A stretch of 64,000 bases of DNA from Helicobacteraceae bacterium (GTDB taxonomy: Bacteria > Campylobacterota > Campylobacteria > Campylobacterales > Sulfurimonadaceae): positions 88,968-152,967 of the forward strand of contig JALWGC010000019.1 in the NCBI GenBank assembly GCA_027038835.1. The letters are read 5' to 3'. The notes beneath the pieces are model-generated. The model was not told the DNA's origin and did no database searches. It saw only the letters and a list, made by a program, of their open reading frames with translations. This document shows, one piece after another, positions 9,406 through 24,348 of the stretch (position 1 is the stretch's first letter; each line of letters starts with the position of its first letter). Position numbers and translations under genes: made by a program.

Positions 9406-10079
9406 ATGACGTAGCCCGCTCCGTAAACGTTTCTCAAAACTCCTTTTGGGAGTTTTGAGCGTAACCGTTTTATAAGCGATGTTACCGAATCGGAAGAAAA
9501 CTTCATCTCCTGATTGTTTGGATGGATCGTATAAAAAATCGTCTGTGCCGAAACCGGTTTGGAGAGGTTCTCGCACAAAAGGCGCATACACAACCTTTCT
9601 TTCGTTTTTAGGGGAATCTCCTCTTTGTTTCTATAAAGCTTTTCCCCTATCTTGTCCCAGTAAACATCATCGTCTAGATATACCCTTTTTTGTGTTTTTC
9701 GAAGCTCGAACACGCTTTTAAAAAGGATATCTTTGAGTTTTTCGACATTGATCGGTTTGATAAGATAGGTCTCAAGATGCAGTTCCACCGCTTTTAGAAG
9801 TTTTTCTTCTTCCGAATGCGCACTCATAATCACTATGCGCGTTTCTTTATCCTCCTCTCGAATCTTCGAAATGAGTGAAAGCCCATCGAGTGATGGCATA
9901 TTGATATCGGTTATGATGATATCAGGCTTTTTGTCTTTATATATCTTGTACGCTTCTTCCCCGTTTTGCGCGCTATATACCTTGACAAAAAAAAGGTGCA
10001 GATACTCGCTGATATACTCCAAAAGCTCTTTTTCATCCTCCGCGACAAGAAGCGATATGTCATTGATTCTACTTTCCAT
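9393..10079 (-). CDS. OmpR/PhoB-family response regulator, partner of the ODP histidine kinase
   Basis: A 228-residue two-domain regulator. The receiver (about 5-120) has acidic ED15-16, phospho-acceptor D58 in ITDINMPS, and the lysine of LIKP near 108. A C-terminal winged-helix DNA-binding domain (about 135-228) ends in the typical YGAGYVI hairpin. The ATG at 10079 is chosen over an adjacent GTG because AGGAG lies at the right distance. It overlaps the kinase gene by 11 bases, which marks the two as a cognate pair. Last gene of the nor/nir unit. Its 3' end overlaps the convergent gene by 13 bases. Confidence 0.88.
   Translation of the reverse strand: MESRINDISLLVAEDEKELLEYISEYLHLFFVKVYSAQNGEEAYKIYKDKKPDIIITDINMPSLDGLSLISKIREEDKETRIVIMSAHSEEEKLLKAVELHLETYLIKPINVEKLKDILFKSVFELRKTQKRVYLDDDVYWDKIGEKLYRNKEEIPLKTKERLCMRLLCENLSKPVSAQTIFYTIHPNNQEMKFSSDSVTSLIKRLRSKLPKGVLRNVYGAGYVIYER
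9433..9459 (+). terminator. Strong hairpin terminating the plus-strand receiver gene
   Basis: An 11-bp perfect stem CTCAAAACTCC / GGAGTTTTGAG with a 5-base loop, 27 bases past the stop codon at 9405. It lies inside the coding region of the convergent response regulator, so it must serve both as hairpin and as codons. There is no T-run directly after it. Confidence 0.5.
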
Positions 10080-11577
10080 CACCCTCTCCTATTTCGATGG
10101 TAAACGCAGCGCCCTTACCGACGTTACGTGCCGTTAATCTTCCACCCATATTGTCTTCGATTATCATCTTGGCTATGTAGAGTCCAAGCCCCGTTCCCAT
10201 AGACTGGTGCTTGGTGGTAAAATAGGGATCGAAAATCTTACCCAAATGCTCTTTGGCTATCCCCCCGCAATCATCCTCTATGACAAGGTAGATTCTTTTG
10301 TTTTTTGTATATAACCGTATCTTGACGTTGGCTTTTTTCATATGCTTCTCGACTACGATATCTCGAATGTTCGAAAGTATCGTAACGAGCACTTGAACGA
10401 ATTCGTTGATAAGCCCGTACGCTTGCAAGGTTTGGTCTATCTCAAGGCTTACAGCTACTTTGAACTCCTTCGAGATCGAGAAGTTGACGATATCGAGTGC
10501 TTTGTAAATAGCTTCGGCGATGCTAAAAAACGATTTTTCCTTATCGGGTCGGTAGTAGTTCATAAAATCCTCTATCGTCTCCGACATATACTCTATGTGG
10601 TGCTGCATACTCTCGAGTTTTTCACCAAGCTCCTCCGGACGCAGCATTTCCATCTGATTTTTCTCTTTTATTATCGCGACAAGGGTACCGAGTATCGCCA
10701 AAGGTTGACGCCATTGATGTGCGATATTGCCAAGCATCTCTCCAATCTCGGCGCGCTTCGACTGTGCAAAAAGCGCTCTGTTGCGCTCTTCTATGGTTCG
10801 CTCCTGCTCTTTGAGACGCTCTATGGTGTCAAGCAACTCTTCGTTGTATTTTTTGTCTATGTACAAACCGCAATCGAGTTGTTTCATATCTTCTATCAGC
10901 GAAGCGATAAAAGGTTTTTTGATGATAGAACCGTGTTGGGGAGCTATGAGATCGATATCGAGCGATTCGATTTTTTTCAAAGCGTAATTGAAAATATCTT
11001 TGCTTGGCATATACTCTTGATGGAACTGTTTCGCTTTTAAAAAATAGTCCTCACGCGCATAAAATTCCCAGCTTTGCTCTATACCTCCGAAAATATCTCC
11101 CGAAAACAATGTTTTGCTTCTTGGCTCGTACGTTACAAAAGCACCCGGCGAATGGCAATACGGAGTGGTCAAAAACTCTAACTTCAAACCGTTTTGGGTA
11201 AGAAGTTCGTAGTTGTTCTTGTCTATTTCATAGTAACTCGAGCGCACAAGATAATGTTTTATCAATACCGTCATACGTGAATGGGTGATGATTTGCAAAT
11301 CTTCTCTGTCTATGAGTTTTTCTATCTCCGGTACTGCGGCTACGAGGTCTGGGTCTTGATGATGCAAAACGATATATTTGATGTTTTTAAAGTCGGTAAC
11401 GCTCGCGATTTTTCGAGTCGTTTCTTCAAACTCTATCATCGAGCCCGGGTCAATCAAAATCGACTCTTCACCGTTTTCTATCAGGTAAGGATGGCATTGA
11501 AACGCATCATCGGGTAAATACATCCCGACCCAATAGATATTATCGGCTATTTTTACAGCCTCCTCATACCGTTTCAT
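10069..11577 (-). CDS. Histidine kinase with N-terminal ODP-like (di-iron metallo-beta-lactamase fold) sensor
   Basis: A 502-residue soluble protein. Residues 1-235 form a metallo-beta-lactamase fold of the flavodiiron/ODP type with a near-complete di-iron ligand set: H73-Q-D75-P-D77, H142 (YCHSPG), D161 (FSGDIFGG) and H215 (PQHGS). Flavodiiron enzymes have Glu where this has D75. A coiled linker (about 240-275) leads to a kinase: H-box IAHQWRQPL with H287, N-box N403, G1 DDCGGI (435-440) and G2 GTGLGL. No flavodoxin domain and no membrane helix are present, so it is probably a cytosolic O2 or NO sensor rather than a reductase. The ATG at 11577 gives the natural flavodiiron-like start and a 14-base overlap with cobA. 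Function as a gas sensor is inferred. Confidence 0.85.
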   Translation of the reverse strand: MKRYEEAVKIADNIYWVGMYLPDDAFQCHPYLIENGEESILIDPGSMIEFEETTRKIASVTDFKNIKYIVLHHQDPDLVAAVPEIEKLIDREDLQIITHSRMTVLIKHYLVRSSYYEIDKNNYELLTQNGLKLEFLTTPYCHSPGAFVTYEPRSKTLFSGDIFGGIEQSWEFYAREDYFLKAKQFHQEYMPSKDIFNYALKKIESLDIDLIAPQHGSIIKKPFIASLIEDMKQLDCGLYIDKKYNEELLDTIERLKEQERTIEERNRALFAQSKRAEIGEMLGNIAHQWRQPLAILGTLVAIIKEKNQMEMLRPEELGEKLESMQHHIEYMSETIEDFMNYYRPDKEKSFFSIAEAIYKALDIVNFSISKEFKVAVSLEIDQTLQAYGLINEFVQVLVTILSNIRDIVVEKHMKKANVKIRLYTKNKRIYLVIEDDCGGIAKEHLGKIFDPYFTTKHQSMGTGLGLYIAKMIIEDNMGGRLTARNVGKGAAFTIEIGEGDGK

Positions 11578-12310
11578 CGCTCCCAAACCACGCCAATTGT
11601 TCTCGAAGCTCAACCACCTTGCCGACAACTATAAGTGCAGGGGTAGGCAGATTTTTCGCTTTTTCTTCTATGTCGTTCAACTTACCGACTACAACTCTTT
11701 GTTGCGGTGTCGTCCCTTTGGAAATAACTGCTACGGGGAAATCGGGCGATTTGCCAATCTCGATCAGTTTTTTTGCGATATTGCCAAGGTTGTGCAGCCC
11801 CATCAAAAAGATGATAGTATCGTCGGTTTTGAAGTTCTCCCATGGAATCTGCGAAGCACTTTTTTTGGCTTCATGCCCCGTTACGACCCGAAAACTCACC
11901 GCTACACCTCTATGTGTCACGGGAATACCGGCATAAGCAGGTACACTGATAGCCGAAGTGATTCCGGGGATAATCTCAAAAGCCACACCCCGCTCTTTCA
12001 GGTACGCCCCCTCTTCTCCGCCACGACCAAAAACAAACGGATCGCCCCCTTTAAGACGGCACACGATACCGCTTTTAAGCGCTTCTTGGTAGATCGTTTC
12101 GTTTATCTCCTCTTGAGGGAGCGTATGTCTGCCATCCTCTTTTCCGACATAGACAAAACGGCAACCGTCTTTCGCCATCTCCAAAATTTTCGGATTTGCA
12201 AGACGGTCGTAGATGATAACGTCCGCTTCTTCTATGACACGTGCAGCTTTAAGGGTCAGCAGCTCCACATCACCCGGACCCGCGCCCGTTAGGTAAACTT
12301 TGCCACTCAT
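11564..12310 (-). CDS. cobA: Uroporphyrinogen-III C-methyltransferase (NirE/CobA, SUMT)
   Basis: Transfers two methyl groups from SAM to uroporphyrinogen III to make precorrin-2, the branch point to siroheme and heme d1. The 248-residue protein starts VYLTGAGPGDVELLT, and has LKGGDPFVFGRGGEE near 84-98 and the PGITSA segment near 114, all SUMT signatures. It lacks a fused CysG dehydrogenase; that activity is on a separate gene at 24399. Placed between nirF and the sensor kinase, it is the NirE of the heme d1 pathway and probably also serves siroheme. ATGA overlap with nirF. Confidence 0.95.
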   Translation of the reverse strand: MSGKVYLTGAGPGDVELLTLKAARVIEEADVIIYDRLANPKILEMAKDGCRFVYVGKEDGRHTLPQEEINETIYQEALKSGIVCRLKGGDPFVFGRGGEEGAYLKERGVAFEIIPGITSAISVPAYAGIPVTHRGVAVSFRVVTGHEAKKSASQIPWENFKTDDTIIFLMGLHNLGNIAKKLIEIGKSPDFPVAVISKGTTPQQRVVVGKLNDIEEKAKNLPTPALIVVGKVVELREQLAWFGSDETV

Positions 12311-13413
12311 CGTTTCTTCTCCTCGTATTGGTAGATAAATATTCCCGAAGGTTTTTTTATAGTGAATATCTCACGATTGAGCCAAAAACCGTTGGTATTG
12401 AGTACGGCAACTTTGTTCGTGTCATTGACGGAGACGTAAAGTTTCGGTTTTTCTTTGGACCATCGCACATGAAGCACTTTACCGTCAAACGTGTGGGTTT
12501 TGATGATTTTGAACGTTTTGGTATCGATAATTTGAATAGTCGGGAAATCTTTTCCGCTAAAAGTGACTGCGAGATATTTGCCATCGGGACTAAGTGAAGT
12601 GAACACGGGAAGCCCTTTTGTTTGTATCGCTTTTACGAACTTGAAATCGGGCGTATAAACAAACACTTTGTTGTCTCCAACAGCAGGAATGAAAACGTTT
12701 TTATCGCTGATGGACCAAAAACCGAAATGGGGTACTTTAAGCACCGGTTTTCTATCTCCAAGTTTAAGCTGAATCTTCTCAAACTTCAAACTATCGAGAT
12801 CGACCACGCCAAACCATGGACTCATAAAGTAACCGTTAATGTACTTGTCCCCTTTTATCATCGCATCAAACGGCATAGTACCGGTATGCTCGAACTCTTT
12901 GACCAATGCAAAGTGAGGTTTACCGTTTTTGTAGCTTTTTTTATAGACCGCTATCGCGTCTTTGTCCATTTCGGAAAAGACAAGATAATCTTTATATATT
13001 TTTATACCGACGTTTCGAGAACCGGTTTTGATTTTTTGGATCGGTTTTAGATCACGTGTTAAAATATCGACACTTTTGTCGTCGTAGTTCGCAACCGCGA
13101 CAAAATCTTTGTCTATAACGAATCCTATGGCACTTTTACTCGTTTTATACTCGTTGAGTTTTTTTTCTTTTATCGGATCGAAACGTACGACATATCCGTC
13201 ACGACTGATCAAATACCCGTCATGGTCGTAGAACTTGATAATGCCATGATTGAGATTGTGCATATGCTCCATTCTGCCTCTTGGCAATCCATCTTCGATA
13301 ATTGCCACACTGCTACTTTCACGCTCGACGACGAAAATTTTCTCTTTCGCACTGAGATTCGTCATTCCAATCCCAATTACCAATGCACCTAAAAGTAGTT
13401 TTTTTATTTTCAT
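12307..13413 (-). CDS. nirF: Heme d1 biosynthesis protein NirF
   Basis: A 368-residue beta-propeller protein related to the d1 domain of NirS. An N-terminal signal peptide (about residues 1-22, LLLGALVIGIGMTNLSA) sends it to the periplasm, where NirF carries out a late step on the d1 precursor. Histidines at 50, 52 and 56 (MEHMHNLNH) lie where NirF has its functional His cluster. There is no CXXCH, which argues against the related NirN. It overlaps nirJ and cobA by ATGA at both ends, so the three are tightly coupled. Confidence 0.85.
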   Translation of the reverse strand: MKIKKLLLGALVIGIGMTNLSAKEKIFVVERESSSVAIIEDGLPRGRMEHMHNLNHGIIKFYDHDGYLISRDGYVVRFDPIKEKKLNEYKTSKSAIGFVIDKDFVAVANYDDKSVDILTRDLKPIQKIKTGSRNVGIKIYKDYLVFSEMDKDAIAVYKKSYKNGKPHFALVKEFEHTGTMPFDAMIKGDKYINGYFMSPWFGVVDLDSLKFEKIQLKLGDRKPVLKVPHFGFWSISDKNVFIPAVGDNKVFVYTPDFKFVKAIQTKGLPVFTSLSPDGKYLAVTFSGKDFPTIQIIDTKTFKIIKTHTFDGKVLHVRWSKEKPKLYVSVNDTNKVAVLNTNGFWLNREIFTIKKPSGIFIYQYEEKKR

Positions 13414-14534
13414 ATTTCCCTCTCTCTTTCTTCTTTAGTTAAATAACACGACGGGTCTTCCGCCCATAAATCGCCGCTGATGGCGTACGCTCTGGCTCTT
13501 GAACCTCCGTTACAGATGGCTATGTGTTTGCAAGTGCTACATATGCCGCTAATATCACGCGGATGCTTTCGAAGCTTGTCTAAAAGCTCTCCGCCCTTCC
13601 AGATTTCTCTAAAATCCTGCTTTAAAATGTTCCCTACCGTAAAAGGGAAAAACGGGTCGGGTCTGACATCCCCTTCGGAATTGATATTAAGCAGTTTTCT
13701 CCCTGCCGAATTTCCGCCCCATTTTAGAAGTCGGTCTTTTAGTTTCTCTTTTTTATCGGGGTATTTCTTTGCAAAACGCTCAAGAAGCATTATCGCATCC
13801 ATCTCCATATTGCCCGTCACTATCTCGATATCTCTGCCGTTTTCATAGTACTCAAATGCCTTATCGAGGATGAACTCCACCGCTTCTCTGCGCTGCTCTT
13901 TACTCAAATCCATCTTGAGGTTGTCCAACCCTCTCCCGCTGTAAACAAGGTGGGAAATGTAGATTTTTGGGATATTCTCTTTTTCGGCAAGTTCGAAAAT
14001 GAAGCGCAAAGAACCTATGGTGTCTTTTGTCATTGTAAAACGGATACCGACTTTGGAGTTACCCACTGCATTAGCGAGTTTGACCGCTTTTAGCGTTTCT
14101 TTGAACGCGCCGGGAAGCCCTCGAAAATAATCATGCGTTTTTTCATCGCCGTCGATGCTCACGCCGACATAGTTGAACGTCTTGGTGATTTTTTCGACAT
14201 TCCCTTTGGTAAAGTAAAGACCGTTACTTGAAAGGTAGGTAATGATGCCGTTTTGTTTGCAAAACTCGGCGATTTCGAAGATATCTTTTCTCGTTAGCGG
14301 CTCACCGCCGGAAAATATGATAAACTTCACCCCCGCTTCTTTCATCTGCAGAATCGTCTTTTTTATATCTTCCGTCGTCAAGGTATCGACCGCATCGAGC
14401 CCCGACTTGGAATAACAGTGCAAACAGTTGAGGTTACATCGGTTGGTGAAGTTCCAAATGGCGATGCTGCCATCGAGTGAGCGTTCGAGTTTTTCCTCCA
14501 CTACCGAAGCTATGAGGTTAGATAGTCGAAACAT
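13410..14534 (-). CDS. nirJ: Radical SAM heme d1 biosynthesis protein NirJ
   Basis: A 374-residue radical SAM protein that removes the two propionate side chains of didecarboxysiroheme on the way to heme d1. The [4Fe-4S] motif is C33-X3-C37-X2-C40 (NRCNLNCLHC); FSGGEPL follows near residue 92. The C-terminus carries a SPASM-like set (CSTCKHIAICNGG and a later Cys) for an auxiliary cluster. The ATG at 14534 overlaps the stop of the cytochrome gene (TGATG) with GGGAG upstream; an in-frame GTG one codon earlier is less likely. Confidence 0.92.
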   Translation of the reverse strand: MFRLSNLIASVVEEKLERSLDGSIAIWNFTNRCNLNCLHCYSKSGLDAVDTLTTEDIKKTILQMKEAGVKFIIFSGGEPLTRKDIFEIAEFCKQNGIITYLSSNGLYFTKGNVEKITKTFNYVGVSIDGDEKTHDYFRGLPGAFKETLKAVKLANAVGNSKVGIRFTMTKDTIGSLRFIFELAEKENIPKIYISHLVYSGRGLDNLKMDLSKEQRREAVEFILDKAFEYYENGRDIEIVTGNMEMDAIMLLERFAKKYPDKKEKLKDRLLKWGGNSAGRKLLNINSEGDVRPDPFFPFTVGNILKQDFREIWKGGELLDKLRKHPRDISGICSTCKHIAICNGGSRARAYAISGDLWAEDPSCYLTKEEREREI

Positions 14535-14842
14535 CACTTCGCTCCCTTGTACGAAAGTACATAATCGCTTATAGCGTCCAGCTCTTCGGGTGAGAGGTGC
14601 AACTGTGTCATAACGCTACGTTTGTAACCGAACTTCTTGTACATCGTCCTCGGTGAAGAGATATACGCCATGATTTCCGCTTTGGAGCGTTTTTTGGCTA
14701 TCTCGCTAAAAGGGGGTCCAAACGCCATTGCACTCTGATGATGGCACCCCCAACAGTAGGTTTTGAAAACTTTCTCACCGCTTACGTCGCTTGCAAACAA
14801 CGAAAGGGAAACGAACAAACTAACAAACACCATTCTTTTCAT
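14534..14842 (-). CDS. Small periplasmic monoheme cytochrome c (NirC/NirM-like)
   Basis: A 102-residue class I cytochrome c. A signal peptide (about residues 1-17) precedes one heme site CWGCH near residue 30, and a likely axial Met lies in RSVMTQ near 78. Such proteins in nir operons donate electrons to NirS or assist d1 loading. The second of two close ATGs (14842) is chosen because AGAGGA directly abuts the first one at 14848. Which role it has cannot be told by sequence alone. Confidence 0.85.
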   Translation of the reverse strand: MKRMVFVSLFVSLSLFASDVSGEKVFKTYCWGCHHQSAMAFGPPFSEIAKKRSKAEIMAYISSPRTMYKKFGYKRSVMTQLHLSPEELDAISDYVLSYKGAK

Positions 14843-14911
14843 TTTCATTCCTCTTAGATAACTATTTATTCTACCCTATTAAAACCATCAAAAGAACAAT
14901 ACCCCACATAT

Positions 14912-16024
14912 CTATCGCACTTTGTAACTATAGTGTTTCATTAACGTCGGTTTGGTAAGCGTTTCATCTTCCAAATCCAACACTTTCGTACAGTTAGGTT
15001 TGGCCAAGAGAAGATACATCTTCACCTCCACGACATCCCCTTTTTGGATATTTGGTATTTCGTATGTCAATATTTTGGTCCGCTTCGCTCCAAGGTTGTT
15101 GACAAATCCTCTTTTTGTAGCGCTTGAAGGGATGATGACACTTTCGTTCTTATCGTTTAAAAACTCTATATGAAACGCTCCTTGTTTGTCCTCTGTCGGG
15201 TCTTTGGTAAAGTTACGCCATACAACTTCGCCATCTCTCACCACTTCGATATCGAGATACTTCATTCGTGCGGCTTGAATGATAAGCGGATGGGGCATCT
15301 TGTTCGTTACGATGACTTCTATGCCGTTTGGAATCTTCTTTACCGCCAAATCGACACTCTCTTTTCGCATCTCTTCATTATGGATACCGACAAATTCATG
15401 GGAATGATGCTGCATCCTCCCTTTTTTATTCGTTTTTTCCGCGCCTCCGTTTACCATAGGCATATGGCACTTGATACACTCTTTAGCGTCTTGATTCTCT
15501 TGTATAGCTTGAAAAATCAAAACATCTTGGTCGTTTCGTTTGTGGGAATGGCATCCCAAGCAAACGTTTTTATCGTAAATAGGGTTGTTGAGCATCGCAT
15601 GTTTATCGCTGTCGTCCGGGTCTTGAAGCGAGCCGTACATATTTGGTTTGTACCCTTCTACCTGTTTGGCAACGACGTTGATATTGTGCTTATGCGCTTT
15701 TTTCACATAAGCGATTTGGTGACAAAACATGCACCCTATAGCGTCTGTTTGATCCTCGTACAATTTACTTGGATGCTCGCTCCCTTCAACCAAAGCTTGC
15801 AGGTTTCGTGCTGCCGGCATATGGCAAGGAGCGCAGTCGTATTTTTTTTTGCTGACTTTATCTGCCACTTTTCTATGCAATTCATCGTTGAAATAGGTCT
15901 TGGAGTGGTAAGAGTTCTGATACTCGTAATAAATCTCTTCGTGACACTCTTTACAAGACTCGTTCGTTAGATATTTTGCATATAAAAATGAAGATAAAAG
16001 AGCGATTATGTAGAAAGTTCTCAT
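14912..16024 (-). CDS. Pentaheme cytochrome c, nirS-linked copy
   Basis: A 370-residue secreted protein with a signal peptide (about 1-16) and five CXXCH sites: CKECH near 24, CAPCH near 65, CMFCH near 97, CLGCH near 155 and CIKCH near 184. Extra His pairs (HHSHEF) could be distal ligands. From about residue 225 there is a heme-free, beta-rich C-terminal domain. Fold and spacing recall the cytochrome c554/NrfA-like multiheme group. It is a paralogue of the protein at 21752. The role is unknown; periplasmic electron transfer to or from NirS, or binding of nitrogen oxides, is inferred from position. Confidence 0.82.
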   Translation of the reverse strand: MRTFYIIALLSSFLYAKYLTNESCKECHEEIYYEYQNSYHSKTYFNDELHRKVADKVSKKKYDCAPCHMPAARNLQALVEGSEHPSKLYEDQTDAIGCMFCHQIAYVKKAHKHNINVVAKQVEGYKPNMYGSLQDPDDSDKHAMLNNPIYDKNVCLGCHSHKRNDQDVLIFQAIQENQDAKECIKCHMPMVNGGAEKTNKKGRMQHHSHEFVGIHNEEMRKESVDLAVKKIPNGIEVIVTNKMPHPLIIQAARMKYLDIEVVRDGEVVWRNFTKDPTEDKQGAFHIEFLNDKNESVIIPSSATKRGFVNNLGAKRTKILTYEIPNIQKGDVVEVKMYLLLAKPNCTKVLDLEDETLTKPTLMKHYSYKVR

Positions 16025-16052
16025 AGTTTCCCTCTTTTATTGTGTACACAGA

Positions 16053-16077
16053 TTCACACCCCAAAAAGGAGTGTGAA
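16053..16077 (-). other. Intercistronic stem-loop upstream of the nirS-linked pentaheme gene
   Basis: TTCACAC (16053-16059) pairs with GTGTGAA (16071-16077), continued by two more G-C pairs around one mismatch and a loop of five A/T bases. It follows the nirS stop by 8 bases on the minus strand. The T-run is in the loop rather than after the stem, so an RNA processing or stability element, or a partial terminator, is more likely than a full stop. Confidence 0.5.
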
Positions 16078-16084
16078 ACAAGGC

Positions 16085-17722
16085 TTACGCACCCGGAATA
16101 GATTGTCTATGCTCGATGGAGTAAGTAAATGTAGGAGTAGTCAAACCTTTGATATATTTGACGAATTTTCCTGTTTTAGCTTCGTAAATACCGATACGTC
16201 CGGTATTCCACTCACTAATCATAGTCCATTTACCATGATTTGCCGGCTCAGCGTGGAGGATTCTAGGTATTACCGCTTTGCCGTTTTTATCTTTTACAGT
16301 AGGTACGCTCCATTTGTAAAGTGTTTTATGAGTTACAGGGTCATACACTCTACCTGTTTTCGTACCGACTTCGATGATTCTATCGACTACGAGCTCTTGT
16401 TTGTTGATAAGATGCACTTTGTTCCATGCAGTAGGACCACCTAGAACGTTGTCAGACCAGATAAACGGCGTATGCTCACTTGTACCCACAAACAAACCAC
16501 CGCCTGCAGTTCTCACATGCGCTACAACATCCCAGTTACTGTCCCAGATAACGACATCACCCACGTTCATACTGTTTGTAGCGTAAAGCTGACCGTATCT
16601 TTCGTTGTACCAAGAAGAACCTTGACCCGGGTGTGGTTTCGAACCGGGACCGGTATAAACTTTTGTAACGAGTTTTTTGGTCTTGAAGTCAACGACACCC
16701 ATGACGTCACTTCCTTGTGAAGCGATAAAGAGGTAACGACCGATCTCTTTCCCTTCGTTTTCGAAACCGTCATGGAGGATTTTACCGATATTTGGAATAT
16801 CCCCTACGATTGGATAATCAGGTTTTGAGTAGTCTATAATATACACATGACCACCATCTTTGAGTGCAAATGCGATATACGGCCCGTATGGAGTATCGAA
16901 AATCCCCGCTACACGAGAAGAATTGATATTTCCATCCGGATCGATCACGCTTGAAGTCGGATACACTTTAAGCGGCTCGAGCGTCATAGCATCCATCAAA
17001 ATAGCACCACCCGGTACATAGTTACCTGCTACAAGGTATTTACCATCAGGTGAAACCGCAAGACCGCGAGATTCGCTACCGACTCTTACTTCAGCGATTT
17101 TTTGTTGACCTTTAGAAGCGAGGTCGAACATCGTGACCAAACCGTCTCTTGAAATAGAGTAAGCATAACGTGGCATACGCTTGTTGGTTACCGTTACGTG
17201 AACCGCGAAACCTGCATTGTGTTTTGAAAGAATTTTACCCGTAGTTCCGTCGATGAAAGCGACACGAGAAGCGTCACGCTCGGTTACGAAACAGATATCG
17301 GTAACTTTTTTCACATCTGCTGGATGAGGGTATTTTTTGTAGAGCTTCATTCTATCGTTGATTTTTACCCATTTTTTCTTCACGTTTTCAAGGCTAAGAA
17401 CTTCGATCTTTTTCCCTTTGAAATGTTGAAGATAATCGACCATTTTCTGTGCATCGGCTTTTGAGAAGCTGTTTTTAAACGGAGGCATCGCAGTACCCGG
17501 GCGACCGTTCAAAATAGTCTCAGCTAGCATATAAGCGTTTTTCCCTTTTAGCTTGGCAGGTCTAAGGTCTGCTCCGACACCACCTTCATGGTTAGGACCG
17601 TGACACCCTTGACACTCTTTTTCGAACACTTTTTCTACATCCATGTTGGACGTACCCGCAAAAACTCCTGTTGAAACCAACGCAATAGCAGCTGCCGACA
17701 TAACAAGTTTATTCAATCCCAT
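16085..17722 (-). CDS. nirS: Cytochrome cd1 nitrite reductase NirS
   Basis: Periplasmic enzyme reducing nitrite to NO. The 545-residue protein has a signal peptide (about 1-22), a heme c domain with C37-Q-G-C-H41 and MPPFKN carrying a probable axial Met near residue 79, then an eight-bladed d1 propeller beginning near 135. The d1 iron ligand is likely in FAVHVT near 172, and active-site histidines in LHDGFE and TSEHTPF. AAGGAG precedes the ATG. It lies between the nor genes and the d1 genes and is bounded by stem-loops on both sides. Confidence 0.97.
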   Translation of the reverse strand: MGLNKLVMSAAAIALVSTGVFAGTSNMDVEKVFEKECQGCHGPNHEGGVGADLRPAKLKGKNAYMLAETILNGRPGTAMPPFKNSFSKADAQKMVDYLQHFKGKKIEVLSLENVKKKWVKINDRMKLYKKYPHPADVKKVTDICFVTERDASRVAFIDGTTGKILSKHNAGFAVHVTVTNKRMPRYAYSISRDGLVTMFDLASKGQQKIAEVRVGSESRGLAVSPDGKYLVAGNYVPGGAILMDAMTLEPLKVYPTSSVIDPDGNINSSRVAGIFDTPYGPYIAFALKDGGHVYIIDYSKPDYPIVGDIPNIGKILHDGFENEGKEIGRYLFIASQGSDVMGVVDFKTKKLVTKVYTGPGSKPHPGQGSSWYNERYGQLYATNSMNVGDVVIWDSNWDVVAHVRTAGGGLFVGTSEHTPFIWSDNVLGGPTAWNKVHLINKQELVVDRIIEVGTKTGRVYDPVTHKTLYKWSVPTVKDKNGKAVIPRILHAEPANHGKWTMISEWNTGRIGIYEAKTGKFVKYIKGLTTPTFTYSIEHRQSIPGA

Positions 17723-17742
17723 TTTTTTCTCCTTTGTTTGGA

Positions 17743-17766
17743 TTGTGCCTCACAAGAGAGGCACAA
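17743..17766 (-). other. Intercistronic stem-loop between the nor genes and nirS
   Basis: A 9-bp perfect stem TTGTGCCTC / GAGGCACAA with a 6-base loop, starting 3 bases past the stop of the 50-residue membrane peptide and ending 20 bases before nirS. No T-run follows on the minus strand. It could protect the upstream mRNA 3' end or the nirS 5' end after cleavage. Confidence 0.55.
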
Positions 17767-17769
17767 GGT

Positions 17770-17922
17770 TTATTTTTCGTTTTCCAATCTCTTTTTCTCT
17801 TGATAGTAGATAAAGATCATTGGCAATACAACTAAAGTATGCAAAAAGATCGTCAAGGTCAAAGGACCTTGATTGAGCCATCCAAAAAAGCTTGGATTCA
17901 CATCTACAAACGGTTCGAACAT
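17770..17922 (-). CDS. 50-residue single-span membrane protein between norB and nirS
   Basis: Small ORF of 50 residues starting MFEPFVDVNPSFFGWL. One hydrophobic helix spans about residues 19-40 (ending MIFIYY), followed by a charged tail with several Lys and Glu. A good ribosome site, AAGGAG, is placed seven bases before the ATG, and the ORF begins 10 bases after norB and ends before the stem-loop, so it is well fitted to the unit. Not recognised as a named family. By position and topology it could be a small accessory subunit of NorBC, as CcoQ is for cbb3 oxidase, but this is inference. Confidence 0.7.
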   Translation of the reverse strand: MFEPFVDVNPSFFGWLNQGPLTLTIFLHTLVVLPMIFIYYQEKKRLENEK

Positions 17923-17931
17923 TTTCTCTCC

Positions 17932-19380
17932 TTATCTTTCATGTACCGGACTTTTACCGGAAGTGAGCAAGTCTTTAGCGAGGAAAACGAAACCAAGAAG
18001 GGTAACGACACCCATCACAAGTCTCCAATCCATCGCTTGTTGAAACCACATACCGGCTTGACCGTCGAAATATGCCTGCCAAGTACCACCCATTTGAGCA
18101 CGAGCTACAAGCACTTGAGAGTAACCGGCGATCGTAAGCGCTACCGTCATACCCACGACACCGGAAGTGATCAAACTAACACCCCAGATAGAAGCTTTGG
18201 TGTGATTCATCACTTTAATGCCGTTGGTACCTTGAATAGCAAGATACATCATACCGATAAGTATCGTCGCATACGCTCCAAAGAACGCCAAGTGACCGTG
18301 TGCCGCGGTAAACTGCGTACCGTGCGTATAGAGGTTGACTTGAGGCAACGTATGGAAGAATCCCCAAATACCTGCACCCAAGAAGTTACCAAACGCATTG
18401 AGCGTGATCCACGTAAATGCCGGTTTGTTTGTAATAACCGATTTTACATGATCTTCATCGGTATGCTCTGCACCCATCTGCTCACCTTGCGTTTTACCCC
18501 AGTCGTAAAGAACGTGGATGAACATCGCAACAAGCGGTAACGGTTCAAGTGCAGAGAAAAGTGCTCCGATTTCCCACCAGTATTCAGGTGTACCGATCCA
18601 GAAATAGTGGTGACCAAGACCCAAGATACCAGAACCAAAGAGCATCGCAACTTCGATCCACAGCCACATCTCGACAACTTTTCTGTGTGCACCGATGATA
18701 GTGATGAGTGCGTACGCTGCGAGTGAACCGACAAACACTTCCCAAGTCGCTTCAACCCAAAGGTGGATAACCCACCACCACCAGTACTGATCCATAGAGA
18801 TGTTGTCAGTAAAGAACATACCACAAAGGTACAAACCTGAAAACGCGATCATATCTGCCATAAGCACCGTTACGATACCGCTTCTGTTACCTTTCATTCC
18901 GGTAAAGAACAAGTTGGCGACAAACCCGAGTGCCACAACGACGATCCCAAGGTCAGCCCATCTTGGCGCTTCGATATACTCACGCCCTTCGGTGATGAAC
19001 CAGATGGTCGTATCGTCCGCCGGTCCAACTTGAATGAAAAGGTACACCAAAACGACTACGACGATAGCCGCTGCAAAGATCCAAAATAAAAGCTTCCCTA
19101 TTTTGATACCTACCGTTTCGATACCGGTTTCATCAGGTAGCAACCAATAAACGGAACCAAACATCGCAAAAACCATCCATACGACAAGCGCATTGATATG
19201 CAAGATTCTTGCAATGGAAAAGTCAAGCACACCGTAAAGGAAACTAGGCTCGACGAACTGAATAGCGGCTACCACACCAAAAACCAACTGCGCGCCGAAA
19301 ATGATCGCCGCAAACGTAAAATACCATGTAGCAAGCTGTTTCGATTCGCTTCCTACTCCTGTTAATGCATTATTTGCCAT
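17932..19380 (-). CDS. norB: Nitric oxide reductase large subunit NorB
   Basis: Catalytic, heme b- and b3/FeB-containing subunit of the cytochrome c-dependent NO reductase; reduces two NO to N2O in the inner membrane. 482 residues with about 12 helices. Ligand-bearing segments are visible: HINALVVW near 60, HLWVEATWEVF near 204 with the FeB Glu, GHHYFWIG near 254 with the FeB histidines, and AAHGHLAFFG near 344 with heme ligands. No quinol-oxidase N-terminal extension, so it is cNOR. The ATG at 19380 follows AAGGAG and overlaps the norC end by 11 bases; an upstream in-frame start would lie deep within norC. Confidence 0.97.
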   Translation of the reverse strand: MANNALTGVGSESKQLATWYFTFAAIIFGAQLVFGVVAAIQFVEPSFLYGVLDFSIARILHINALVVWMVFAMFGSVYWLLPDETGIETVGIKIGKLLFWIFAAAIVVVVLVYLFIQVGPADDTTIWFITEGREYIEAPRWADLGIVVVALGFVANLFFTGMKGNRSGIVTVLMADMIAFSGLYLCGMFFTDNISMDQYWWWWVIHLWVEATWEVFVGSLAAYALITIIGAHRKVVEMWLWIEVAMLFGSGILGLGHHYFWIGTPEYWWEIGALFSALEPLPLVAMFIHVLYDWGKTQGEQMGAEHTDEDHVKSVITNKPAFTWITLNAFGNFLGAGIWGFFHTLPQVNLYTHGTQFTAAHGHLAFFGAYATILIGMMYLAIQGTNGIKVMNHTKASIWGVSLITSGVVGMTVALTIAGYSQVLVARAQMGGTWQAYFDGQAGMWFQQAMDWRLVMGVVTLLGFVFLAKDLLTSGKSPVHER

Positions 19381-20023
19381 GAACCGCTCCTTGCATACGA
19401 CCGAAGTTTCTTGGGAATCCATTCGTGTCGATACTAGCCATATGTTTCAAAAACGCGACAAGCGCTACCGCTTCGTCATGTGTTATTCCAAGATTTGGCA
19501 TCATTCTTTCATGTGTCGGATATTGATCCGGATTCATCAAAAATGCCACCATAGCCTCTTCTTTAGAGTTTTTGCCGGTCATCGCTTGCATAGTGCCGCC
19601 GTCTTGCCAAGCCGGATCGAGCCAAGCTTTTGTAAGATCCGGAGCAAAATAAGCACCGTTACCAAGCAATGTATGGCAATCCATACAGTTTTTCGCTTGA
19701 GAAGCGAGTTTCCCCTTGTGTAAAAGCGCTGCAGCTTCTTCTTCGCTCCAGAACTTACCGAAAAACTTCTCTTTTTCAGGACCGATTTTTGGAACTTCAT
19801 GCCCTCTTCTGCTATCGAATACATAATCAACTTTATAGTTGATAACAGTTGGAGCAGGGACTCTTTTAGTCACTCCGTTTTTCAAATCTGCATCGGTTCC
19901 CATCGAGATTTGACCCATCGTATCGAACGTCAACCAAATCAACAATACCGACGCGACTCCTGTTACCCATGTTGCCGACCTTCGCCAAAAGCGATTGTCA
20001 CTCCATACGGATTTTTGTGCCAC
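19370..20023 (-). CDS. norC: Nitric oxide reductase cytochrome c subunit NorC
   Basis: Membrane-anchored monoheme cytochrome c feeding electrons to NorB. The 217-residue protein has an N-terminal anchor helix (about 14-32), then a periplasmic domain with C113-M-D-C-H117 followed by the family sequence LLGNGAYFAPDLTK and an axial Met in HERMMPNLG near 170. It is longer than the usual 150 residues mainly through a 60-residue insert between the anchor and heme. The start is GTG at 20023, five bases after AGGAGG; a nearby ATG is out of frame. Confidence 0.96.
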   Translation of the reverse strand: MAQKSVWSDNRFWRRSATWVTGVASVLLIWLTFDTMGQISMGTDADLKNGVTKRVPAPTVINYKVDYVFDSRRGHEVPKIGPEKEKFFGKFWSEEEAAALLHKGKLASQAKNCMDCHTLLGNGAYFAPDLTKAWLDPAWQDGGTMQAMTGKNSKEEAMVAFLMNPDQYPTHERMMPNLGITHDEAVALVAFLKHMASIDTNGFPRNFGRMQGAVHGK

Positions 20024-20035
20024 ATTACCCTCCTG

Positions 20036-20362
20036 TCAATGTTCATTTTCACGATGAACATGATCTTGCATATAATAAACCGCATGCGGAACCAAAAGCA
20101 GTCCCACCGCGGCAACAACCAGAGCTTTAGCCGTGAAATGATCCACATGCATCAGGCTCCCCATCAAATACAAACAGTACACGGTAAGAAGCCAAAAGCC
20201 ATAGCCTATTATCATAAACCATGGTTTTAGCAGTCTTACTTTCACTGCCGTAAAAAGCCCTACGTACAATCCTCCAAATACCAAAACAAGAGCAGAGGCG
20301 ACGAAAATGGTTAGAAAATCTCCCGATGCTATCTCCGGCGTCAATATAAGATTTTGCTCCAT
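20036..20362 (-). CDS. Membrane protein heading the nor/nir unit
   Basis: A 108-residue protein with three predicted membrane helices (about 14-36, 46-66 and 80-94) and a His-rich C-terminus (DHVHRENEH). It is the first gene behind the FNR-like operator and lies 12 bases before norC. It could be a NorE/NorF-type accessory protein or a quinone/cytochrome-linked helper, but no family is recognised. Good start with AAGGGG before the ATG. Confidence 0.7.
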   Translation of the reverse strand: MEQNLILTPEIASGDFLTIFVASALVLVFGGLYVGLFTAVKVRLLKPWFMIIGYGFWLLTVYCLYLMGSLMHVDHFTAKALVVAAVGLLLVPHAVYYMQDHVHRENEH

Positions 20363-20431
20363 TTTCTACCCCTTTTCTTATTTTTTCTTTAGAATCAAAT
20401 GTAGTTTATCATTCTTTAGGTTTAAAATTAA

Positions 20432-20445
20432 TTGACCTGTATCAA
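20432..20445. promoter_or_regulatory. FNR/DNR-like operator of the nor/nir unit
   Basis: TTGACCTGTATCAA, a CRP/FNR-superfamily box (consensus TTGAT/C-N4-A/GTCAA). The centre is 76 bases before the first ATG. If it acts at -41.5 the start site would be near 20397, with a -10-like GATAAA/ATAAAC at 20404-20410. It differs from the box at 24335 at only one base. Confidence 0.7.
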
Positions 20446-20528
20446 TTTTCCATACTAAAATAGAAATTATAAAAAAATACGCTTTTTTTGTTTCATTTTG
20501 TAACATTTCTCGATTTTTTTTCGAAAAA

Positions 20529-20555
20529 TTGACAATATTGTCATAATATTGTCAA
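20529..20555 (-). terminator. AT-rich hairpin: terminator of the 62-residue protein gene, or an operator
   Basis: An 11-bp perfect stem TTGACAATATT / AATATTGTCAA with a 5-base loop. On the minus strand it is followed by TTTTT, which fits an intrinsic terminator for the gene ending at 20635, though only two to three pairs are G-C. Its ends also read TTGAC and GTCAA, like the operators nearby, and it contains the palindrome TGACAATATTGTCA. Both readings are possible. Confidence 0.45.
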
Positions 20556-20634
20556 AAAATAGAAAAATTTCTTCGTTTAAGGTTAAAAGGAAGATTTTAG
20601 CAACAAAAAATACAATCTATACGATTTCTGTTGC

Positions 20635-20823
20635 TTACATATAATAAAAGAGGGAAGATAAAGAGAGTGTTACCACTATAGTGGTTACGACGACTACCGT
20701 TCTTTTTTTCGTTTCATCGAGCCCTAAGCGCTCTTCAAGATAATCACCGAGTTTCAAAGCCGGAAAAACGGTAAAAATAAGCATAGGAAAACCCATCACC
20801 ATTATCAAAACAAAATCATGCAT
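20635..20823 (-). CDS. 62-residue two-helix membrane protein
   Basis: Starts MHDFVLIMVMGFPM at an ATG (20823) preceded by AAAGGAG; a longer frame would lack a ribosome site. Two hydrophobic helices (about 4-22 and 41-60) flank a short charged loop with Glu, Arg and Lys. Not recognised. It stands alone between the nor unit and a divergent lipoprotein gene, with an FNR/DNR-like palindrome only 14 bases before its start, so it may be expressed or repressed with the denitrification genes. Confidence 0.6.
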   Translation of the reverse strand: MHDFVLIMVMGFPMLIFTVFPALKLGDYLEERLGLDETKKRTVVVVTTIVVTLSLSSLFYYM

Positions 20824-20836
20824 AACGCTCCTTTGC

Positions 20837-20850
20837 TTGACTTTCGTCAA
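20837..20850. promoter_or_regulatory. FNR/DNR-like operator between the 62-residue protein and the lipoprotein
   Basis: TTGACTTTCGTCAA, with perfectly symmetric half-sites TTGAC/GTCAA, the pattern known for NO-responsive DNR/NNR regulators. For the plus-strand lipoprotein at 20910 it lies about 40 bases before a start site implied by TATAGT at 20871-20876, a suitable activator position. For the minus gene starting at 20823 it is too close and would be repressive. Confidence 0.6.
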
Positions 20851-20909
20851 TAGAATTAATCATATATTTATATAGTATTATACCAAGATTACAAAAAAAA
20901 GGATATACC

Positions 20910-21287
20910 ATGCAAAAGAAGTTGATCGCAGGTGTCACTTTTTCGTTGGTTTTACTATTTGGTGGATGTTCGCATACTTCCCCTTCAGCCTCACAAGAAA
21001 GTGCGAGTCACTCCGAAAATGCCGTTTATAGCTCTGTAAAAAACGACAAGCAGTTGAAGAAACTGGTACTCAAAGCCGCTAAAGAACAAGGATGGCGCAC
21101 GACAGCGTTGGGTGAGAATGCGATAATCGCAGAAAAGTTCGATTCAGACAACCCAAAGGCGACAACTATCAAAATCGGTAACGGCGTTGTGGATTTTAAC
21201 AATATGGAAGGAACCGACTCGGGTGATATAGTCGATCTCAAAGAGTATATCGAAGACCTTCTAGAAGCACAACAAGAGGAGCATTAA
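20910..21287 (+). CDS. Small lipoprotein in the denitrification island
   Basis: 125 residues with a lipoprotein signal peptide ending LLFGGC (lipidated Cys near 20), a Ser-rich linker, and a small mixed domain (about 45-120) containing WRTTALGENAIIAE. Probably anchored to a membrane facing the periplasm. No family recognised. AAGGAT precedes the ATG. It is convergent with the 103-residue membrane protein gene, overlapping its end by 4 bases. Confidence 0.65.
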   Translation: MQKKLIAGVTFSLVLLFGGCSHTSPSASQESASHSENAVYSSVKNDKQLKKLVLKAAKEQGWRTTALGENAIIAEKFDSDNPKATTIKIGNGVVDFNNMEGTDSGDIVDLKEYIEDLLEAQQEEH

Positions 21288-21595
21288 TCTCCTCTTCTCT
21301 TCTGCTCTTGCTTTTTTTGTTTTAAATAGCTCGATTTTATCTGCATCAGTTCATAAAACGACACTTTCTCTCCGGCTTGTTCGATAAGCTTGTCGGTTTG
21401 TGGGTATTTTCCTTTCATCTTCGCTATCTCATTGTAACCTTGCGGTTTTATCTCGTTTGTAAAAGTCCCGATAGCCACCGCCCAAAGAAAAACGATAGCT
21501 ATCCATACAATTTTGAGCGATTTGACATAAATGCCCACCAAATGCAAAAGAAAAGTTACGACAATACCAATCCCTATCAGTAGATAAACACTCAA
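21284..21595 (-). CDS. 103-residue two-helix membrane protein
   Basis: Two membrane helices (about 4-24 and 29-46), then a polar tail rich in Lys, Glu and Gln with a coiled-coil look (about 75-100). The start is TTG with GGGGGAG upstream, inside the stop of the preceding small ORF. Not recognised. Last gene of the unit that begins with the siroheme decarboxylase. Confidence 0.55.
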   Translation of the reverse strand: MSVYLLIGIGIVVTFLLHLVGIYVKSLKIVWIAIVFLWAVAIGTFTNEIKPQGYNEIAKMKGKYPQTDKLIEQAGEKVSFYELMQIKSSYLKQKKQEQKRRGD

Positions 21596-21750
21596 TTCAA
21601 TCTCTCCCCCACCGGTTTAATAGATACGTTTACGTCTTGAAACATCTTTTTCTCGAACATAGTCACTCCCATCGTTCCAAGTAGCATCAAAAACACCACA
21701 AACGCCAAAATGACAAACGCCACGCCGTATCTTTTCAATATCTCTTTCAC
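21592..21750 (-). CDS. 52-residue single-span membrane protein
   Basis: Starts with GTG at 21750 two bases after the stop of the pentaheme gene, with AAGGAA upstream, and runs to a TGA that overlaps the TTG start of the next gene. The sequence begins VKEILKRYGVAF and has one long hydrophobic helix (about 9-30), then a short periplasm-facing tail with KPVGERLN. Position and ends fit translational coupling with both neighbours. Function unknown. Confidence 0.6.
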   Translation of the reverse strand: MKEILKRYGVAFVILAFVVFLMLLGTMGVTMFEKKMFQDVNVSIKPVGERLN

Positions 21751-21751
21751 C

Positions 21752-22885
21752 TTAGAGTTCCTTATGCAAAGTTTTGAGCACTTTAAAGCGTAACAACTCT
21801 TTGTCGGTTATATGAAACTTTTTAGCAATTTTAGGACTTACTTTGTAAAAACCGAGTACAACTTCGACCTGCGCGCCTTTTTTAACGGACTCTCCCAATG
21901 AAAACGCTTTGGTTCGCTCAGGTCTAAGCTGAGTGTTTTTAAGCATCTGAGTCGCTTCCCAAGGGGCTGAGGGTTTCCCCTCTTTTCCCAAAACTTTGAA
22001 AAAAGCGTACTTTTTCACAAGTGTTCTTTCTCCGTTTGTATAAACGTAAATCCTCAACTCCCCAAGCCGCATAGGATGCAAGAGCAATTCATGCGGTGCA
22101 AGGTTCGTTACAACCACATCGTAACCGTTTTGCCCTTGTTTCAACTCCATTTTTACATATTCGCTCAAAAGCTCTTCTGCAACGGACACCCCGGCAAAAC
22201 CGTGGAATCTATGCGTTTTCGTATGCTTGATAGTGGAAAAACTTCCTTGTACTTTTGGCATATGGCAAGTAATGCAATTACGTTTTTCACTCATGTGTTC
22301 ATCTGTTTTACAAACACTAAAGCCATGCCCGTTTTGTTTATGTGAATGGCACCCCATACAAACTTTTCCGTTATAGAAGTTTTCGTTGGAAAAGTCTATT
22401 TTATGAAACGGCGAACCATGTTCTTTTTTTACAAGTCCGAAAAAAGAACTTTTAAGCCCATACTCGACATCTTTTCGATTTTTCTGCGCCGCTCTGGCTC
22501 CAAATAGGGTATCGCCTCTTTTATCCAAAACATTCACGTTACTTTTGGTATGTTCTTCGATACTTTCGATACGGTGACAATACACACATGATATAGGCTC
22601 GTGCAGCTGTACTTCGTTTTTTTGCGGTAACCCTTTTAGTGCCGTATCTGCGGGTGTATGGCACTTCTTGCACTTGTAGTTTCCTTTTTTTCTATCGGGG
22701 TGCTTTTGCCATACTGCATTGTGCAACGGGTCTTTGAAAATCGAAGCTTTGGCATGCATCGAGTTTTTGTATTCTTTATATATTAAAGGGTGGCACTTCT
22801 GACACACTTTCGAAGAGCTAAGCGGTATCTCTTTGGCCTGCAAAGCAAACACAAAAAGCGAGACGATAAAAACAACTCTTTTCAT
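21752..22885 (-). CDS. Pentaheme cytochrome c, nirDLGH-linked copy
   Basis: A 377-residue secreted protein with a signal peptide (about 1-17) and five CXXCH sites: CQKCH near 28, CKKCH near 72, CVYCH near 100, CMGCH near 176 and CITCH near 203. It shares its layout with the protein at 14912, including IYKEYKNSMHAK after heme 1, CHSHK at heme 4, CHMP at heme 5 and a beta-rich heme-free C-terminus with an APHELLLHP-type segment. Gene duplication is clear. Its ATG overlaps the preceding gene by 4 bases. Confidence 0.82.
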   Translation of the reverse strand: MKRVVFIVSLFVFALQAKEIPLSSSKVCQKCHPLIYKEYKNSMHAKASIFKDPLHNAVWQKHPDRKKGNYKCKKCHTPADTALKGLPQKNEVQLHEPISCVYCHRIESIEEHTKSNVNVLDKRGDTLFGARAAQKNRKDVEYGLKSSFFGLVKKEHGSPFHKIDFSNENFYNGKVCMGCHSHKQNGHGFSVCKTDEHMSEKRNCITCHMPKVQGSFSTIKHTKTHRFHGFAGVSVAEELLSEYVKMELKQGQNGYDVVVTNLAPHELLLHPMRLGELRIYVYTNGERTLVKKYAFFKVLGKEGKPSAPWEATQMLKNTQLRPERTKAFSLGESVKKGAQVEVVLGFYKVSPKIAKKFHITDKELLRFKVLKTLHKEL

Positions 22886-23268
22886 TTTTTAGGCTCTTCG
22901 TAAATGTATTCGACACATCTGGCGGTGTGAAAATCTCTTATATATTCCGGATTGGTAAACACATCCCCTTTGAGACTCCAACCGTACTTTTTACTCACAA
23001 GCACCGAAGGCATGACTTCTCTTCTCATTTTATTCTCACATATCACCGTTTTACCCTGTGCGAAGAGTTGTTTTACCTCAGCCATTCTGTCGGTAGTGAT
23101 TTTATAATGCCACCCTATGAAGATGGCAAAGATGCTCGCCACCCCTATCATCCCCCGTTTGAAAGCGACACGAGGCATAAAATCTCTCGTCGTTACAAAC
23201 GCCGTTACAGCGAGAAAGAACAACCCTATGACGATATAAGGAATTTCGAGTTCGAAAAAGGTATTCAT
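22882..23268 (-). CDS. Two-helix membrane protein after the siroheme decarboxylase
   Basis: 128 residues starting MNTFFELEIPY at an ATG that overlaps the upstream stop (ATGA) with GGAG before it. Helices at about 8-27 and 37-55; the C-terminal half (about 60-128) is soluble and holds two Cys (VICEN and TARCVEY) and a conserved-looking KKYGWSLKGD. Not recognised. It may anchor or serve the pentaheme cytochrome encoded next. Confidence 0.6.
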   Translation of the reverse strand: MNTFFELEIPYIVIGLFFLAVTAFVTTRDFMPRVAFKRGMIGVASIFAIFIGWHYKITTDRMAEVKQLFAQGKTVICENKMRREVMPSVLVSKKYGWSLKGDVFTNPEYIRDFHTARCVEYIYEEPKK

Positions 23269-24275
23269 GCGCTTTTCTCCATATATTTTTCTTCCCACTC
23301 TCTAAAAGCGGGGGTAAAATACTCTATGCGCACTTTTTTGAACTCCCTCGAGCTATAAAGCGGCATATAGTTGTTTGTCGGTATCTCACGCGCCATCTCT
23401 TCGATGATGGAGTTGGTCTCATCATGTGTTTTTCCATGCACCATCGTAAAAAGGTTATAAGGCCAGTTTGGATATTTTGGGCGCAAGTAACAGTGGCTCA
23501 CTGCACTAAAAGCTGCCGCTTTGGCACCTATCTCTTCCCCTTTTTGCCCCTCTTCAACATCCCAAACCACCATGGCGTTGGCGTTAAATCCCGCCTTTCT
23601 ATGGTTGAGTATCGAAGCGAATCGCCGCATGACACCGGCATCTTGCAGTTTGGAAAGTATGTCGAAATACTCTTCGTAGCTTATCCCAAGGGTATCGACT
23701 ACCTTTTTAAACGGTTCTTTGACAAAATCGATGTCGTATTGCGTCAAGCGGATAACCTCTTTATATAACGGCGTTATTTCTATCTCTTTATGTTTGACCT
23801 TTTTGACTTTCTCTTTTTTCGCATCTTTTCCGGTCGTATCGAGCTTGACGTTGATTTTGAAAAGCTTGAGTGTCGGCAAGATGATAAAATCTTTCGCACC
23901 GCTGAGTTCAGCCAAACGTGCGACGGTCTCTTCCAACGTATAATCGCTTTGGGGCTCTATGGCGATAGTGAACCAAATGTTGAAATCGTGATTGCGTTCG
24001 TAATTGTGCGATATACCCGGATGGGCGTTTAGTATCGCCACCGCTTTGTCTATATCGTTTTCATCCACTTCAAACGCCACGAGCGAAGATTTATAACCAA
24101 GCCTTTTTGTGTCGAATATTGCCGAAGTTTGGCGAATGATACCCGCCTCTTTTTGCTCATTTAGAACCGATAGAACTTCATCTTCTGCTATACCCAGCTC
24201 GTTAGCTATCGCCTCGAAAGGTCTTGGTGTGAGAGGAAACGCCTTTTGTACTCTTGATAATATCTCGTCTTTCAT
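23265..24275 (-). CDS. Fused siroheme decarboxylase NirDL/GH (AhbAB-like)
   Basis: A 336-residue protein with two tandem AsnC/Lrp-like halves. The first half contains HNYERNHDFNIWFT (near 90-103) and the second SHCYLRPKYPNWPYNLFT (near 265-282), the two signatures of NirL/NirH-type and NirD/NirG-type decarboxylase chains. In Pseudomonas or Paracoccus these are separate or partly fused subunits; here one chain probably supplies both. It removes acetate carboxyl groups of siroheme to give 12,18-didecarboxysiroheme in heme d1 synthesis. The inner ATG (24275) has GGATGG at good distance; an ATG four codons upstream is possible. Confidence 0.88.
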   Translation of the reverse strand: MKDEILSRVQKAFPLTPRPFEAIANELGIAEDEVLSVLNEQKEAGIIRQTSAIFDTKRLGYKSSLVAFEVDENDIDKAVAILNAHPGISHNYERNHDFNIWFTIAIEPQSDYTLEETVARLAELSGAKDFIILPTLKLFKINVKLDTTGKDAKKEKVKKVKHKEIEITPLYKEVIRLTQYDIDFVKEPFKKVVDTLGISYEEYFDILSKLQDAGVMRRFASILNHRKAGFNANAMVVWDVEEGQKGEEIGAKAAAFSAVSHCYLRPKYPNWPYNLFTMVHGKTHDETNSIIEEMAREIPTNNYMPLYSSREFKKVRIEYFTPAFREWEEKYMEKSA

Positions 24276-24334
24276 GCTAAAAACCATCCAATAAATTAAT
24301 TTCTTTATTTTAGTAGAAAAAAGTTACTCTTTTT

Positions 24335-24348
24335 TTGACCTTTATCAA
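24335..24348. promoter_or_regulatory. FNR/DNR-like operator of the siroheme decarboxylase unit
   Basis: TTGACCTTTATCAA, one base different from the box before the nor/nir unit. On the minus strand TAAAAT at 24307-24312 would serve as -10; the implied start site at 24300 places the box centre exactly at -41.5, the class II activator position. It also lies 50 bases before the plus-strand sirC-like gene. Confidence 0.72.

Follow-up and report, generated by a model that had tools for sequence, protein, structure and literature searches.

The pentaheme cytochrome c552 of Thermochromatium tepidum (structure 5ZE8) has been grouped with the Geobacter ExtKL proteins and the pentaheme cytochromes (PHCs) of cable bacteria, in a family for which an immunoglobulin-like domain has been described and which is related to the archaeal nanowire cytochromes (PMC11976967). 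c552 itself is without a clearly assigned function, and a role in sulfur metabolism has been suggested for it (PMC11976967); for ExtKL, participation in selenite reduction has been proposed (PMC5877670). A published link between this c552/PHC family and denitrification was not found in the papers searched. In S. denitrificans, the bc complex supplies NirS and NorBC with electrons by way of cognate cytochromes c, and regulators of the Nss type in Wolinella respond to nitrate, NO, and N2O (PMC6682613).

Here, a 64-kb stretch of DNA (the window) from a member of the Sulfurimonadaceae, a bacterium of the sulfur-oxidizing type, is shown to encode two proteins of this family, designated P1 and P2, among genes of denitrification (Table 1). 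For a family in which structures have been solved but to which the literature consulted assigns no function, the link to nirS, the common operator-like sequence, and the members that neighbor nos genes offer a function that can be tested. They also bear on the electron route to NirS and NOR in the Campylobacterota, which are important denitrifiers at sulfidic interfaces.

Table 1. Genes and operator-like sites of the P1 and P2 runs, in window coordinates
Feature	Coordinates	Strand	Basis and remarks
SUMT-like uroporphyrinogen methyltransferase	11564..12310	-	sequence and context
NirF-like cytochrome d1 beta-propeller	12307..13413	-	Cytochrom_D1 3e-22, no heme c
NirJ-type radical SAM protein (heme d1 synthesis)	13410..14537	-	TIGR04051 1e-114, below its cut-off
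NirC-like monoheme cytochrome c	14534..14848	-	domain scan and position
P1 pentaheme cytochrome, clade A1	14912..16024	-	370 aa, between nirS and nirC
NirS, cytochrome cd1 nitrite reductase	16085..17722	-	Cytochrom_D1 8e-63 and heme c domain
NorB-type nitric oxide reductase large subunit	17932..19422	-	COX1 1e-51 and context; subfamily inferred
NorC-type cytochrome c subunit	19370..20023	-	Cytochrom_C 2e-7; inferred from context
NorX, small membrane protein heading the run	20036..20362	-	conserved before NorC in relatives; no Pfam match
TTGATACAGGTCAA operator-like site	20432-20445	-	upstream of the NorX...NirS-P1 run
U103, small predicted membrane protein after P2	21284..21595	-	order conserved in relatives; no Pfam match above cut-off
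P2 pentaheme cytochrome, clade B3a	21752..22885	-	377 aa, within the nirDL run
U138, small predicted membrane protein between nirDL and P2	22882..23298	-	order conserved in relatives; no Pfam match
NirDL-type siroheme decarboxylase	23265..24287	-	PF17805 6e-52, PF22451 7e-27
TTGATAAAGGTCAA operator-like site	24335-24348	-	upstream of nirDL-U138-P2-U103

Two Pentaheme Cytochromes of the c552/PHC Family

Both open reading frames lie where a first-pass annotation of the window had placed them, each with five CXXCH motifs, a C-terminal domain free of heme motifs, and a signal-peptide-like N-terminus. The motifs are CKECH (residues 24-28), CAPCH (64-68), CMFCH (98-102), CLGCH (155-159), and CIKCH (183-187) in P1 and CQKCH (28-32), CKKCH (72-76), CVYCH (100-104), CMGCH (176-180), and CITCH (204-208) in P2. 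Their spacing, which that annotation had described as matching, is similar but not identical, with motif-to-motif distances of 40/34/57/28 in P1 and 44/28/76/28 in P2. Because the two proteins align nearly end to end at 30% identity (E = 1e-44), they are homologs, with chance excluded, and the paralogy that had been claimed for them is borne out. A third pentaheme homolog of the same genome, P3 (C13:44585-45658), had been missed; it lies between argF- and trpS-like genes. On plasmids, homologs of the pentahemes are represented by a single weak match.

Pfam recognizes only generic heme domains in P1 and P2 (PF13435 and others), of which PF13435 spans only the first hemes, about 80 residues, and in an NCBIfam scan no model reaches its own cut-off for either protein. 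An hmmsearch profile built from 45 relatives matched 5ZE8 over the full length (E = 3e-44), the alignment covering positions 16-359 of the 367 in the profile, and the next match was the selenoprotein MccSep (E = 1e-16). AlphaFold models of the two proteins (pLDDT 91.7 for P1 and 88.0 for P2) likewise have 5ZE8 as their top Foldseek match, with E-values of 1.7e-21 (P1) and 2.0e-19 (P2) and a TM score of about 0.7, and this is the sole convincing full-length structural match for either. P1 and P2 belong to the T. tepidum c552/PHC family, a known family. In both models the C-terminal domain without hemes is mostly beta structure, and an immunoglobulin-like domain has been described for the family; this region of P1 and P2 is therefore taken to be that beta domain.

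Fold and profile thus run counter to a kinship with NrfA, HAO, or cytochrome c554 beyond generic heme motifs, a comparison that the first-pass annotation had raised. NrfA identity was rejected as there is no CXXCK motif, the profile match is weak and partial, and NrfA is absent from the Foldseek matches at E <= 0.001; octaheme HAO and tetraheme c554 were rejected given the five hemes, the lack of a full-length match, and their absence from the same set. Nor do the proteins fall among the ExtKL/MccSep selenoproteins, with P1 scoring 22.8 bits against the NF040886 cut-off of 250 and no in-frame TGA.

Clades and Gene Neighborhoods

Of 200 genomes assigned to the Sulfurimonadaceae, as judged from the matching contigs, 155 encode at least one member of the pentaheme family, which is thus larger than a pair; the genome studied here encodes three (P1, P2, and P3). 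A maximum-likelihood tree separates clade A, which contains P1, from clade B, which comprises B1, B2, B3a (the P2 group), and B3b; the branches that join distant outgroups are long and unsafe, and some borders between B3a and B2 are weakly supported. Clade A1, that of P1, resides mostly in nir operons, and its sister A2 is found partly beside the nir cluster and often away from nir. Genes of B1 often adjoin NhaA-like or other unrelated genes. Ten matches of the P2 search lie 4-15 kb from nosZ, and those that were fetched fall in B3b; some of these nosZ-near genes are downstream of a nos operon and have a NosL-like gene and a Crp-type regulator as neighbors. Other B3b genes, at five loci, are in operons with two small membrane proteins, joined where checked by an FMN_bind protein and a porin and in one case by an adjacent ApbE; such operons are predicted to be a flavin-linked electron transfer module or context.

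The P1 run, entirely on the minus strand, has the order NorX-NorC-NorB-(small ORF)-NirS-P1-NirC-NirJ-NirF-SUMT-(ODP-histidine kinase)-(response regulator), and the P2 run reads nirDL-U138-P2-U103. The first-pass annotation had placed one pentaheme in each denitrification unit; the unit of P2 is one of heme d1 synthesis (nirDL) rather than a second reductase unit. Both arrangements extend to relatives: nirS and P1-type genes are adjacent in 9 of 10 A1 loci, which come from Sulfurimonadaceae as well as from contigs that carry the labels Nitratifractor and Campylobacteraceae, and the order nirDL-U138-P2-U103 recurs across genera.

Several other features of these runs were observed. The histidine kinase, which is fused to a beta-lactamase-like domain of the ODP type (PF19583; 10069-11628, minus strand), is followed by an OmpR-type response regulator (9393-10082, minus strand), and the pair, kept in the nir run at six loci of relatives, is a candidate O2/NO-sensing two-component system. 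Two stable hairpins are possible transcript processing points: one at 17743-17766 (z = -2.9), in the interval from the small ORF that follows norB to nirS, and one at about 16040-16078 (z = -1.85), in the interval from nirS to P1. A Nitrospinota contig carries a distant pentaheme homolog near nirDL-, hemB-, and SUMT-like genes, and one genome (92% complete) has the nirDL-U138-P2-U103 order and nosZ, with no nirS found.

A Common Operator-like Site

An FNR-type palindrome heads both runs, in agreement with the operator previously proposed for each unit. The window contains three matches to the pattern TTGAYN4RTCAA, where 0.47 would be expected, and two of the three precede the P1 and P2 runs; but the pattern was defined after those two sites had been seen, so that this enrichment is biased and the counts in relatives provide the separate test. 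A strict FNR-box scan allowing 2 mismatches found 59 sites where 51.6 were expected, and hence no enrichment. The third site, at 20837-20850, is upstream of a small membrane ORF adjoining the nor run, and a similar ORF of 60-64 aa adjoins NorX in several relatives.

Among relatives, the site is found upstream of NorX at 13 of 13 loci and upstream of NirDL at 10 of 12. Directly upstream of the pentaheme genes themselves, it is present in all 19 B2 cases, most of them located away from nir, in none of 15 for B1, and in none of 15 for A2, with a background of 50 among 1309 other genes. The apparent absence of the site from A1 operon heads is an artifact, since operons were traced with gaps of up to 60 bases allowed and this limit split the long P1 run; the NorX counts are to be used instead. 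Together, these counts strongly support a place for P2-type pentahemes in the denitrification regulon, irrespective of where in the genome their genes lie.

Co-occurrence with nirS

Across 201 genomes, B2/B3 members and the main nirS type occur together in 62, the pentaheme alone in 6, nirS alone in 18, and neither in 115 (p = 3e-28; clades of table matches were assigned approximately, by E-value cut, and the p values account for kinship at the genus level only). The same link is seen in genomes without nosZ (11/4/8/102) and within the largest genus (51/4/15/25, p = 8e-9). In that genus B1, a sister clade, shows no link with nirS (p = 0.82) and thus, as part of the same protein family, serves as an internal negative control. 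Apart from three genomes that are 56-70% complete, all genomes with a clade A member have nirS, and clade A alone is only marginally linked to nirS within the largest genus (p = 0.05). Occurrence in many non-denitrifying relatives, which the earlier reading had held would speak against it, is seen for the family as a whole, through B1 and the P3 type, but not for the clades of P1 and P2. Thirteen genomes of the main nirS type have no A or B2/B3 member, so these pentahemes are not essential donors everywhere.

A Proposed Role in Electron Delivery

Since the P1 and P2 branches travel with denitrification genes and with their control sequence, the two proteins are most likely dedicated relays for denitrification; that they are periplasmic five-heme electron relays incorporated in the denitrification regulon is given a probability of just under 0.6. 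Operon position, the common operator, and co-occurrence with nirS all uphold their tie to denitrification, and the electron carriage to NirS/NorC suggested for them at the outset is, as a prediction, the best reading. The genome encodes a bc1-type cytochrome b, NapB, nirS, and norCB; no match to tetraheme NapC/NirT (PF03264) was found in the whole genome. It likewise has no nosZ (TIGR04246), nor does another genome of the genus, and denitrification here may end at N2O. The proposed direction of electron flow and the proposed partner proteins are as follows. P1, encoded at the position in nir operons used elsewhere for a donor cytochrome, would pass electrons from cytochrome bc1 or the cytochrome c pool to NirS and perhaps to NorC, and P2, presumably produced together with the two small membrane proteins of the nirDL run, would provide electrons for the nor/heme d1 branch. 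Points that weigh against this reading are the frequent location of A2 away from nir without the site directly upstream, the marginal link of clade A to nirS in the largest genus, the nirS genomes devoid of these clades, and a conserved Cys/His pair in P2 that hints at something beyond a relay.

The same neighborhoods could be read as pointing to maturation or insertion of heme d1, with P1 and P2 accepting electrons from tetrapyrrole oxidation by NirF/NirC or supplying electrons to the pathway. NirF with NirC makes the keto groups of heme d1, the oxygen coming from water (PMC13168839), an oxidation that would need an electron acceptor; because of this reaction and of the placement of P1 between nirS and nirC-nirJ-nirF and of P2 directly in the nirDL run, this explanation is retained, as an unlikely one. 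Stand-alone B2 and nos-neighboring B3b copies misfit a purely heme d1 role, as does the existence of nirS genomes without these clades.

Heme Ligands and a Variable Cys/His Pair

How far P1 and P2 could act as enzymes rather than relays depends on their hemes and on residues outside the heme motifs. In an alignment of 103 members, the five CXXCH histidines and His-40, His-142, His-209, and His-245 (P1 numbering) are invariant. His-50 is present in all A1, A2, B1, B2, and B3a sequences, missing from six members of one clade and from the distant P3. A conserved candidate distal histidine was found in this way for every one of the five hemes, which suggests five bis-His hemes without a vacant site in P1 and P2, favoring electron relay over catalysis. 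The alternative offered in the first-pass annotation, action on nitrogen intermediates, becomes less likely for this reason.

A second feature lends some substance to an enzymatic role. Cys-192 of P2, outside the heme motifs, is invariant in A2, B1, B2, and B3a, is aligned in 5ZE8 and MccSep, and in most members of these clades is paired with a histidine at P2 position 270, which aligns close to the selenocysteine loop of MccSep. With Cys-192 and His-270 in an active site, the proteins might act on nitrite, NO, hydroxylamine, or a sulfur or selenium oxyanion, for example as detoxifying reductases, and the proposal for ExtKL in selenite reduction (PMC5877670) fits such chemistry. The pair is nonetheless lost in P1's own clade, where A1 has Phe (10/10) and Gln (9/10) at these positions; in B3b the cysteine is replaced by Thr, Val, Ile, Ser, or Ala and the histidine by Gln (26/26). 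Two separate branches linked to denitrification operons have therefore lost it. Given also the candidate distal histidines and the lack of CXXCK or any other known catalytic heme feature, an enzymatic function is as improbable as one in heme d1 maturation. With the pair lost, P1 would be a pure relay, and P2 would retain a possible redox site.

That P1 and P2 are general periplasmic or extracellular electron transfer proteins of the PHC or nanowire-like kind, co-regulated under anoxia and without a denitrification-specific partner, is very improbable, for despite the family's ExtKL, cable-bacteria, and reported nanowire kin and the lack of a nir link in B1 and P3, the clades of P1 and P2 show specific nirS co-occurrence, nir-operon position, and a common operator.

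The reading of P1 and P2 as dedicated denitrification relays can be extended, as a tentative proposal, to the Campylobacterota denitrifiers more broadly. Step-dedicated pentahemes (in the nirS operon, the nirDL/nor unit, the nos neighborhood, and standing alone) might form a periplasmic electron-distribution system that replaces the usual small donors, the nirS-operon and nos-linked branches having independently shed the Cys/His site in passing from redox enzymes to pure relays.

Comparison with Known Systems

Donor cytochromes encoded in proteobacterial nir operons include NirM, NirT, and NirB. P1 shares with them its position in the nir operon and its proposed role, although the families are unrelated. 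The closest structural relative, T. tepidum c552, has the same five hemes and C-terminal beta (immunoglobulin-like) domain and is matched over its full length in fold and profile, but at only about 22-24% identity and in a host that is a purple sulfur phototroph. ExtKL/MccSep (NF040886; 9WT8) and the sPHC of cable bacteria have the five-heme layout in common with P1 and P2; unlike ExtKL/MccSep, P1 and P2 contain no selenocysteine and are not surrounded by an ext-type porin cluster. The archaeal nanowire cytochrome AvECN, the structure of which is presumably 8E5G, is more distant, with a weak profile match (0.003) to part of the heme domain only and four hemes rather than five, and P1 and P2 show no sign of polymer formation. 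With NrfA, HAO, and cytochrome c554, generic CXXCH patterns alone are held in common.
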